Below are positions 33,504 through 37,231 of a stretch of 64,000 bases of DNA, piece after piece (positions within the stretch are counted from its first letter, which is position 1; the number at the start of each line of letters is the position of its first letter). The stretch lies in contig CALUQH010000003.1 of the NCBI GenBank assembly GCA_944322885.1, positions 1 to 64,000 on the forward strand, in the 5' to 3' direction. The position numbers were made by a program, and so were the translations under genes. The notes beneath the pieces are model-generated. The model saw only the letters and a program-made list of their open reading frames with translations, did not search any database and had not been told where the DNA came from. Origin of the DNA: Candidatus Gastranaerophilales bacterium (GTDB lineage Bacteria > Cyanobacteriota > Vampirovibrionia > Gastranaerophilales > Gastranaerophilaceae).

Positions 33504-33544
33504 TCAACTCTTTAAAATATTATTTGATAATTAAATATAAAAAT

Positions 33545-33617
33545 GCCGCGTTAGCTCAGTTGGTAGAGCAAGGGACTGAAAATCCCTGTGTCCTTGGTTC
33601 GATTCCGAGACGCGGCA
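33545..33617 (+). tRNA. tRNA-Phe (anticodon GAA)
   Basis: Complete cloverleaf: acceptor GCCGCGT/ACGCGGC, D-arm GCTC/GAGC, anticodon stem AGGGA/TCCCT with loop CTGAAAA, T-loop TTCGATT. CCA is not encoded. A T-run follows directly. Confidence 0.97.
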
Positions 33618-33715
33618 TTTTTGTTGTTAATCAAGAGTGATATTTGTGATTTTTTAGCAAATTAATTTTTTTTTGAGTTTTACTCAATTTGTTAATTTTT
33701 ACTTAAAGGATAAAT

Positions 33716-34183
33716 ATGAATATTAGTTTCACCGGCTTTTGCAATGTAAGTATTAAAAAAGCAGAATATTCCCGATTTGGTTCATACCAAAAATTGAATA
33801 ATTCTATTGCTCAGGGAGAAAAAAAATATACAAAGATTAAGATTAATGCCTCATTATCTGATGATGAAAAAGGAAATGATTTGTCAGATTATCTAAATCG
33901 TGTTCCGAATGAATTTGTCAATAAAAGGGATTTCAAAAATATTGAATTACTTGTAACTCGTTTTGATATTCCTAATGAAGGAGTTTCTCAATCTTCGTTT
34001 AAGCTTAATAATAAAGATTTAATTTTAAATAGTGATAAAAAACTACCTGTCATGACTTTTCTAGCTCGTTTGACAAGACTATGTTCCCGTGATTCGAATT
34101 ATTCAATTAACCAGAGAAAATATTTGAAGCTCGCAAATAATTCTATACATAAAGAAACTGTTGATTATATTGAAAATAGATAA
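33716..34183 (+). CDS. Hypothetical protein with NISFTG-type N-terminus
   Basis: 155 residues, soluble, basic. AAAGGAT precedes the ATG. It begins MNISFTGFCNVSIKKAEYS, a start reminiscent of a set of uncharacterised short proteins in Gastranaerophilales (from memory, not searched). The remainder has no motif I recognise. It stands directly upstream of the large Clp-N/M41-like gene and may be co-transcribed with it. Confidence 0.75.
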   Translation: MNISFTGFCNVSIKKAEYSRFGSYQKLNNSIAQGEKKYTKIKINASLSDDEKGNDLSDYLNRVPNEFVNKRDFKNIELLVTRFDIPNEGVSQSSFKLNNKDLILNSDKKLPVMTFLARLTRLCSRDSNYSINQRKYLKLANNSIHKETVDYIENR

Positions 34184-34255: not shown

Positions 34256-37231
34256 ATGATTAATAAGATAACTGCGACTCTTGATAAGGTTCACTATTCT
34301 GCAAATTCACTATTTAACAATTCAAATTCTGATAATAATATTCATAATTCCGGTTATGCTGGGGTTCCGTCCGGAATTAGCATGAACTATTTTGTTCCCT
34401 TTCTCGGCAGTGAAAAACATTCAAAAAGTCCTCAGATGACAAAATTTGAAAATATAATGTATTATGCTGATACTCCGACAAAGAAGTTTATCACAAATTT
34501 GAAAAATGAGGCTGTTAAAGATGGCTGTGATAAAATTACTACGCTTCATGTAATTAAATCTTCTCTTAATACATTATGCGGGTATCTTGATAAATTGGAT
34601 TCAGGAGAAGAGGATTTTAAAAACGCTAAGGATTATCCGGATATTGTAGGTATAATTATCTCCGGTGCTGCCCCAAATATCTTTGAACAACCGGATTTAA
34701 GAAAGATGTTTAAAGATGTTCTAAAAAATAATATTTCAAAAATTGATAAAATTTTAGAAAATTATAAAAATGGAACAGTAACCAATCCTGATGATGTTGC
34801 ATTTTCAGAAGATTTAACGGATGCGGTCTGGGCTAACAGACAAGAAGATAAGCCTATAAATTCTGTTAACTTCTTATTAGGTGTATTTAACAGCCCTGAC
34901 GATATCACATCCGATTTCACGGAAGAATTGCGGGATGAAATATCAAATCTTTCAATGCAGGATCATACTCCTGAAAGTAAGCGTACTCCTTTCAGTGTGT
35001 ATGATAAGAAGGCTGAAAATATTTTAAAAAATCTTTCGCTGGGAACTAATATTTATCTAACTTTTGATCAATCTAAGGAAATTCCTCAGCCTTTTATAGA
35101 TACTGTTCGACGTGTTATAAAGAACAGTAATCAAAATTATAAGATTGCTGAGTTTAATGAAATGACTAAGCCTGATTATTTCAGCCAAGTTGTTAGTGAT
35201 CTTGGCAAAGATAAATCAAATAAGTATATTATAATTGCAAACCCGGTTCAAATGATTGTTATGGGTAGTGTTAGGGTTGAAAGTGATGGTAGAATGTCTT
35301 TTGATATACCGCCAATACTTCTGCAAACAATTGCAGCGCCTCCTCCAAATGTGAAATTTTTATTCTATTCAACAAAGGATAATTATTATAATTTTTCGGC
35401 AACTACAGGTTTATTTTCTGATTTTGAGGAGGCTGCATTGCCAACTTTGTCTACAGTTCAGATGATTAGATTCTTTAAAGAAAATCCTGTTTTAATTCAA
35501 AATATTCAAAAACCGTTTTCAAAAAATGCTATTGAAAAAGTAGTAGAAGCCTCAGCTCAGCTGGACGGAGCTTTCCCTATTAAAACTGTAAATCTTATGA
35601 AAAAAATCGTAAGTTATTACATTGATAAAAAAGAAATAAATGAAACAGATGTAGCAAATTATTTGAAAGAGGCAACAAATTTATTTAAAAAAGCAGGAGA
35701 TGACAGTTCAATTGTAATGTCTTTTGACACCGGTAAAAGATTAAAAAATATTGTTGGTAAAAATTCTACAAAAAAAGAGGCAGCCTCTATTGTAAAACAG
35801 ATTAGGTCAAATAAAATGGGGACAAAGGGTATTATTATATATTCCCAAGATGGTTCCCCCGGAAGCGGAAGAAGATATACTGCAAAAGCAATAGCAGGTG
35901 AAGCAAGTGTTCCATACCTTGAAATTAATACAATGGATTTTGGAACAAAAGATGTTGATATTTTCGGGGGTGGCGTGCTTTCGCCGGAAGCTTCAATAAA
36001 AAAATTATTTTCAGTGGTAAATACTCAGGCAGAAGCTAATCCGAATAAATCTGCAGTATTGTTTATTGAAAATTTTGAATATTTTTCTGTTGGGGAATTT
36101 GTCTCCGAATATCACCAAAAGGCTATGGCCCAACTTCTTAGAGAAATGGAAAAAGCGGACAAGGCCGGATTAAATGTTCTTGTTGTCGGTTCAGTCGCGG
36201 ATCCGAATCTTATAGGGGCTGCTGCAATGAAATCGTTTAAATTCGTGGATAGTATAGAGGTATCTTCTCCGGCTTATAATAAAGCGGAAAGAGCGGAAAT
36301 TATTAAACAGGCATTGCATGACGCAAAAGTTAAACTTGCGGGTGATAGTGAAACACGTGAAAACATAATTGAAGCTGCATCGAATATTACAAGAGGTTTC
36401 CCGTTTATTTATCTTAAGAATTTTGTCAAAAAAGCCCAATCTGTTGCCTTGGAACGCGGTCACAGATCTCTGACAAAAGCTGATTTTACGGAAGCATATT
36501 TGCAAATAACAACCGGCCGACCGGCCATGAACCATATAGAAGATCATGAAAAACGTGTTGTATCCTCTCACGAATGCGGGCATGCTGTTAATCTTGAAGT
36601 AATGAATAATATTGCAAAGACAATCGGAAAACCGTGGCATATTCCTGATAAAGTAAACTTTATAACGCTTGATCCAAGGGGTGTTTACGGTGGTGCCGTA
36701 TACCATGGCAGAGATAAAAACAGTGCAATGTCATTTGAAAATATCTTTGCATCACTTGTTTGCTCTTTTGGCGGCAACTCAGCTGAAAATTTATTTTACG
36801 GAATGGACGGCTCTTATGGTATAAGTGCGGATATGGAATCTGTCAGAGCTTATGCGGATTTAATGGTTAAAAATCTCGGTATGGGCGCAAATACCGGAAA
36901 AATGGTAATTGCTCCCGATGATGTGTTATCAGAGAATTTAAAATCAATGATTGAAAAAGATGAAAGAGTTATTATCAATAATGCTAAAATAGCTTCTGAT
37001 TTTATTACTGAAATATATGCTGATTTTAACAGACAGTTTACGGAAAAATATGCGCCTCTTGTCGGCACCGGAGAATGTATTCTTGACGGAGATGATTTCA
37101 GGAAGGCCTTAGAGGAATGGAAGTCCTCGCAAAGTCCCGAAAAACAAAGAGAGTTAAAACTCTGTGATGAAGCTATTGTAAAAATTATTAATGCAACTAA
37201 AAAAGGGATTGCGGTAAGAAAAGAAAATTAG
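34256..37231 (+). CDS. Large soluble AAA-type protein with Clp-N-like start and FtsH/M41-like metallopeptidase end
   Basis: 991 residues from ATG 34256 (AGGAG upstream). Residues ~64-105 (MYYADTPTKKFITNLKNEAV, TTLHVIKSSL) resemble the Clp N-domain repeat. A middle region (~260-480) looks like a degenerate first AAA module. The second AAA region has a Walker A read as GSPGSGRR (533-540), with Arg replacing Lys, and a Walker B read as FIEN (603-606), lacking the catalytic Glu. The C-terminal third is M41-like: HECGH at 772-776, LVCSFGGNSAENLFYG and YGISADMESVRAYADLMV, which could supply the third zinc ligand. No transmembrane segment exists, unlike FtsH. Proteolysis is plausible, ATP hydrolysis doubtful. 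Confidence 0.8.
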   Translation: MINKITATLDKVHYSANSLFNNSNSDNNIHNSGYAGVPSGISMNYFVPFLGSEKHSKSPQMTKFENIMYYADTPTKKFITNLKNEAVKDGCDKITTLHVIKSSLNTLCGYLDKLDSGEEDFKNAKDYPDIVGIIISGAAPNIFEQPDLRKMFKDVLKNNISKIDKILENYKNGTVTNPDDVAFSEDLTDAVWANRQEDKPINSVNFLLGVFNSPDDITSDFTEELRDEISNLSMQDHTPESKRTPFSVYDKKAENILKNLSLGTNIYLTFDQSKEIPQPFIDTVRRVIKNSNQNYKIAEFNEMTKPDYFSQVVSDLGKDKSNKYIIIANPVQMIVMGSVRVESDGRMSFDIPPILLQTIAAPPPNVKFLFYSTKDNYYNFSATTGLFSDFEEAALPTLSTVQMIRFFKENPVLIQNIQKPFSKNAIEKVVEASAQLDGAFPIKTVNLMKKIVSYYIDKKEINETDVANYLKEATNLFKKAGDDSSIVMSFDTGKRLKNIVGKNSTKKEAASIVKQIRSNKMGTKGIIIYSQDGSPGSGRRYTAKAIAGEASVPYLEINTMDFGTKDVDIFGGGVLSPEASIKKLFSVVNTQAEANPNKSAVLFIENFEYFSVGEFVSEYHQKAMAQLLREMEKADKAGLNVLVVGSVADPNLIGAAAMKSFKFVDSIEVSSPAYNKAERAEIIKQALHDAKVKLAGDSETRENIIEAASNITRGFPFIYLKNFVKKAQSVALERGHRSLTKADFTEAYLQITTGRPAMNHIEDHEKRVVSSHECGHAVNLEVMNNIAKTIGKPWHIPDKVNFITLDPRGVYGGAVYHGRDKNSAMSFENIFASLVCSFGGNSAENLFYGMDGSYGISADMESVRAYADLMVKNLGMGANTGKMVIAPDDVLSENLKSMIEKDERVIINNAKIASDFITEIYADFNRQFTEKYAPLVGTGECILDGDDFRKALEEWKSSQSPEKQRELKLCDEAIVKIINATKKGIAVRKEN

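Follow-up and report, generated by a model that had tools for sequence, protein, structure and literature searches.

It is assumed that AAA+ proteases depend on ATP to feed their peptidase. The locus described here raises the question of whether a protein of this kind can retain its peptidase when both of its motors are gone, and what the remaining rings would then be kept for. It lies in a stretch of 64,000 nucleotides (the window) of a Candidatus Gastranaerophilales genome of 1.86 Mb. The intact open reading frame, 34256..37231 (forward strand, as for all features below), starts with ATG at 34256, has a stop codon ending at 37231 and is preceded by a Shine-Dalgarno-like sequence, AGGAGAAG (AGGAG), just 5' of the ATG. 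Its 991-residue product is a soluble M41 protease of Clp/FtsH-like build in which both AAA domains are inactivated. The same genome also encodes a normal FtsH and three separate Hsp100-type proteins of 834–894 residues. As the features of the protease recur in homologues, chance and sequencing error are excluded as their origin. No paper on such a protein in Gastranaerophilales was found in the literature collection searched.

Domain organization

The protein starts with a disordered, Asn-rich tail (residues 1–59; 34256..34432), characterized by AlphaFold2 pLDDT values below 50 and the lowest sequence identity of all parts. This is followed by a helical region resembling the N-domain of ClpC-type Hsp100 proteins (residues ∼60–245; 34433..34990) and by a domain similar to the Hsp100 D1 AAA module that is devoid of a P-loop (residues ∼246–487; 34991..35716). 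The second half harbours an FtsH-type AAA domain, AAA2, whose motifs are inactivated (residues ∼488–755; 35717..36520), and an M41 zinc peptidase domain (residues ∼756–991; 36521..37228).

The second half was assigned by Pfam, structure searches and alignment. Pfam places AAA at residues 533–662 (E 7e-12) and Peptidase_M41 (PF01434) at residues 761–907 (E 2e-14, 54 bits with a cut-off of 29.9), and a sequence search of solved structures matched FtsH over residues 496–885 (E 2e-21); a PF07728 search added nothing. The NCBIfam FtsH_fam model scores 111 bits, far under its 600-bit cut-off. In the full-length AlphaFold2 model (mean pLDDT 78.6), FtsH (3kds) is the best fold match for the second half (E 6e-20); confidence is moderate over AAA2–M41, and the relative placement of the domains is uncertain (pTM 0.46).

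For the first half, a preliminary description of this DNA had proposed a Clp-N-like start and a degenerate first AAA region. Pfam, which recovers the AAA and M41 domains, gives no match in the N-terminal half of the window protein, Clp_N included, but a profile of 42 N-terminal halves from the family matches ClpC structures at the N domain (3pxg, E 8e-7) and at the D1 lid (6em8 residues 308–428, E 3e-8). Modelled alone, the N-terminal half reaches a pLDDT of 91.3 and a pTM of 0.85 and resembles Hsp104, ClpB, ClpC and ClpA (E down to 1e-8), with Foldseek pairing the D1-like part with NBD1 of ClpB, ClpC and Hsp104. Profile and fold comparisons thus bear out both proposals, with an Hsp100 fold in the first half and an FtsH fold in the second.

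The proposed absence of the FtsH membrane segment is likewise upheld. No transmembrane segment is detected by hydropathy, the best 19-residue score being 1.38 versus 2.71 in the genome's own FtsH; among 77 homologues none is predicted and no score exceeds 1.6. The protease is therefore predicted to be cytoplasmic. An origin as a simple FtsH copy is ruled out by the membrane, motif and score tests. The protein shares with FtsH the order of AAA and M41 peptidase, the fold and the zinc ligands, and differs in lacking the membrane segment, functional Walker A and B motifs and Arg fingers, and in possessing the Clp N and D1-like domains. With ClpC and ClpB it shares the N-terminal helical domain and a D1 with a typical lid, whereas the two functional P-loops and the D2 C-terminal domain of class I Hsp100 proteins (ClpA/B/C) are absent, D2 being replaced by an FtsH-type AAA domain and a built-in peptidase.

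Loss of ATPase motifs in both AAA domains

ATP hydrolysis by AAA+ proteins requires the Walker A Lys, the Walker B Glu and Arg fingers. In the D1-like domain no P-loop was found. In AAA2 the Walker A motif reads GSPGSGRR (residues 533–540; 35852..35875), with Arg in place of the Lys of the GxxxxGK[ST] consensus, and is preceded in the window by a three-residue insertion that measures two to three residues across the family. The substitution is present in all 75 loci with letters at this position and, as R539, in all 35 sequences picked by whole-protein similarity. The Walker B motif, VLFIEN (residues 601–606; 36056..36073), has lost the catalytic Glu to Asn and carries E605/N606 where FtsH has DE. 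Among the 35 whole-protein relatives this position is occupied by Asn in 29, Lys in four, His in two and never by Glu, and the 75 loci likewise show no Glu there (N/H/K). The 35 sequences derive from whole-protein scans free of the bias affecting Walker B counts in the 77-species scan, which relied on YHQKAMAQ and on patterns taken from the Walker B region. Homologue alignments also reveal that the Arg-finger region RPGRF has become KSFKF (36230..36244), and that the two SRH Arg-finger positions (K659 and K662 in the window) are altered throughout the 75 loci and the 35 relatives, mostly to Lys, which stands at each of them in 31 of the 35. The earlier reading of the second AAA as dead is thereby corroborated, and by the known rules both rings should be unable to hydrolyse ATP.

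Hydrolysis by a non-standard arrangement involving Arg539/Arg540 and Glu605 would be in keeping with the invariance of Arg539, the frequent presence of Glu605 at the Walker B Asp position and strong purifying selection; yet it is very improbable, as Lys, the Walker B Glu and both Arg fingers have been lost together and most relatives outside the clade keep them.

An intact peptidase site

The peptidase domain presents the opposite picture to the motors. The zinc-binding and catalytic motif HECGH (residues 772–776; 36569..36583), spotted in the preliminary description together with other M41-like motifs, falls within the PF01434 match. Glu844 of the GGxxAE motif, a conserved M41 residue (36785..36787), and Asp859, which aligns with the third zinc ligand of FtsH (36830..36832), complete the site by residues. 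H772, E773, H776, E844 and D859 are invariant in 75/75 loci and in 35/35 sequences selected by whole-protein similarity, and zinc-peptidase activity would be expected of such a site. A non-proteolytic scaffold or chaperone with a structural zinc site would suit the chaperone-like N-domain and D1; nevertheless, the conservation of every catalytic residue in 75/75 loci, the HEXXH glutamate included, makes this reading quite improbable.

Distribution and evolutionary history

Of the 77 loci of the family in the GTDB species collection, nearly all carry the label Gastranaerophilales or that of an uncultured bacterium. Most relatives with a name are Candidatus Gastranaerophilales MAGs from the gut, the order being placed in the Melainabacteria lineage; odd labels on a few loci (e.g. 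Clostridiaceae, Acinetobacter) look like mislabelled MAGs. Whole-protein searches matched 93 of 286 genomes of the order (about a third, a few of them only via an intact-motor relative) and 21 of 50 genera, with a patchy distribution inside genera. Across the phylum 36 of 244 genomes match, every one of them from the window's own family. The features are kept across the protease family, so they are no accident of one genome.

A tree of the AAA2–M41 region (68 sequences, LG+G4, 1000 ultrafast bootstraps) groups the dead forms as monophyletic (support 99), nested among soluble proteins of about 850 residues that retain the Walker A Lys (support 90 for dead plus 850-residue forms). A separate clade of soluble proteins of ∼750 residues is also recovered (support 100). 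Like the window protein, both of these Gastranaerophilales types (L018–L022, L177–L184) are soluble AAA–M41 proteins; unlike it, they carry the Walker A Lys in all cases, with full FtsH motifs in L018–L021, and have no Clp N domain. The nesting indicates that the motor of the second ring was lost once, in an already soluble protein. Most 850-residue forms share the D1-like region with the family (E 1e-22 to 4e-7) without the Clp N domain; as that D1 is degenerate too, loss of the D1 motor is probably older than that of AAA2. The order also contains relatives whose FtsH-type AAA is intact, so that the contribution of the motor can be tested on a natural before-and-after pair. Within the 750-residue clade (L177, L178, L181–L184, Walker A intact), several members display an F-x-G-like start.

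Such relatives invite the question of whether the dead form joins an ATPase-competent AAA–M41 protein in a mixed ring, to which it would give only peptidase sites or recognition. Mixed hexamers of the FtsH family are known in cyanobacteria and organelles (PMC9020784, PMC8047818), a normal FtsH is available in the window genome, and several genomes of one genus group hold both the dead form and the 750-residue form with its intact Walker A. However, a soluble partner above threshold is missing from the window genome and from most carriers, the normal FtsH is membrane-anchored, and the Arg fingers that a neighbouring subunit needs are gone; a mixed ring is accordingly an unlikely arrangement.

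Selection on the inactive ring

Mean pairwise identity across 73 sequences is 0.21 for the tail, 0.22 for Clp-N, 0.33 for D1, 0.53 for AAA2 and 0.48 for M41. In 14 close pairs the dN/dS of AAA2 ranges from 0.013 to 0.080 and is often the lowest among four domains. This top conservation and low dN/dS argue that the inactive ring is under strong purifying selection and is kept for a function; a decaying pseudogene is ruled out by dN/dS and the invariant residues. In-frame stops and splits are rare: a single TAA occurs in the matches of genome G013, where it sits upstream of the chosen start, another in those of genome G200, and one locus (L106) is split.

G536, G538 and R539 in the P-loop region are strongly conserved, so that AAA2 may still bind a nucleotide. 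In the main rival account AAA2 would bind ATP, ADP or another nucleotide without hydrolysis, its occupancy opening or closing the peptidase ring. The invariant glycines and Arg539, in the most constrained part of the protein, agree with such gating, and so does the precedent of LonC, whose hexamer binds six nucleotides although it has no ATPase activity (PMC3391209). Replacement of the Walker A Lys in every member, a P-loop longer by two to three residues and the loss of the sensor-1 Asn in many sequences speak against it, and a structural reason would account for the conservation equally well; overall, we regard nucleotide gating as having a modest chance of being correct.

A putative ATP-independent chambered protease

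The reading that we favour, by a little over even chances, is that the protein is an ATP-independent chambered zinc protease, the FtsH counterpart of LonC. It would be a cytoplasmic zinc endopeptidase, probably hexameric, that needs no ATP hydrolysis: catalysis would take place in a ring of M41 domains, the two AAA rings (FtsH-type and Hsp100-type D1) would be retained as a rigid collar and entrance, and the Clp-type N domain would capture or gate the substrate. Entry and cleavage may be limited to unfolded or short polypeptides, as in LonC, and the conserved N-terminal F-x-G tail would probably, on weaker grounds, act as a docking or localisation signal. As FtsH-type degradation is ATP-driven and LonC belongs to another peptidase family, the mechanism is transferred by analogy.

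LonC of Meiothermus taiwanensis, a model for ATP-independent chambered proteolysis, is likewise a soluble AAA+ protease with decayed ATPase motifs and a preserved peptidase (PMC3391209, PMC9569914). It is hexameric, lacks ATPase activity, degrades unfolded proteins without ATP and yet still binds six nucleotides (PMC3391209). It differs from the window protein in having one AAA ring and a Lon peptidase domain, of an unrelated family. The suggestion in the preliminary description of an ATP-independent or pseudo-ATPase-regulated peptidase is consistent with all these findings and with the LonC precedent (PMC3391209), although here it is reached by reasoning from analogy.

The plant and algal FtsHi proteins (e.g. 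the Ycf2–FtsHi motor) are also divergent FtsH relatives and rank among the best fold matches. They belong to chloroplast membrane complexes and are called pseudo-proteases in the title of a review cited in PMC9020784; with the motor kept and the peptidase lost, they are the mirror image of the window protein.

A conserved clade spanning many genera thus keeps its M41 site and discards both motors. If the favoured reading is true, the clade would join LonC as a second example, from an unrelated peptidase family, of a ring architecture that is worth keeping for its own sake. A broader and more tentative proposal, for which the odds are clearly below even, is that this is the first LonC counterpart on the FtsH side, a fuel-free metalloprotease with dead, maintained rings whose N-terminal motif marks an undescribed sorting or delivery class.

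Genomic neighbourhood

No conserved operon was found and no gene accompanies the protease across species; its neighbours track the local synteny of each subclade. In the window genus a backbone of TPR gene, infC and tRNA-Phe is nearly constant. The tRNA-Phe (GAA) occupies 33544..33618, and in seven carriers of the genus the protease lies in a variable stretch right after it; non-carriers have the same backbone without the protease. This stretch (after infC; window and L215–L244) varies between species like an integration hot spot. For a single gene that lacks conserved neighbours and represents a variant within the AAA+/M41 kind, the earlier label of a candidate new protease-like system is too strong.

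The 155-residue NISFTG-type gene at 33716-34183, earlier put forward as a possible partner, is rejected as such. It sits between the tRNA and the protease, is private to the window at that place, and its protein matches no Pfam family; relatives are weak (28–34% identity, in nine of 58 genomes, the window's own included), and none adjoins the protease in other loci. An ISFTG start, of the same F-x-G type, is seen in this small protein and in another of 188 residues at L170:11972-12538 (G000:C20:31972-32538).

The N-terminal F-x-G motif

The F-x-G motif of the protease, NYFVPFLGS (residues 44–52; 34385..34411), contains Phe49, invariant in the family and nearly the sole conserved residue of the otherwise divergent, disordered tail. 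A motif at residue ∼33–55 (D-T-V-S-F-[TSKG]-[GA], relaxed F-x-G) behind an Asn-rich start is common to the protease and to unrelated proteins, which include adenylate kinase, RelA/SpoT-domain proteins and unknowns. Carriers are found at L078:1659-2375, L092:1320-2369, L089:1096-2247, L162:9658-10743, L135:6436-7752, L136:9728-11335 and L164:10643-11083.

Across 1749 ORFs the strict pattern D[TSAV][VIL][STEN]F[TSKGNRC][GA] has 18 matches, all within the first 100 residues, and the other 454,497 residues contain none. The exact size of this enrichment is optimistic, as the pattern was framed after examples had been seen; ten of the 18 carriers are not M41 proteins. Searching 21 genomes with an independent version of the motif at the DNA level yielded 20 matches, versus two for the reversed control. 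In a combined start-plus-tag test 61 cases were observed against 6.7 in shuffles (maximum 12); 24 of the 61 are not caught by the automatic M41 filter, but two of these 24 (L099, L106) belong to the protease family. Loose F-x-G patterns over all proteins show weak N-terminal enrichment, and the KAN[YF] variant in one genome (G046) matched nothing beyond the protease.

A natural guess is that the motif serves as a shared docking, sorting or delivery signal. In two neighbouring proteins (L153:9848-12343 and L153:12487-13656) the F-x-G start leads into a stretch that resembles a signal peptide or a lipoprotein, so that the motif precedes a secretion signal there.
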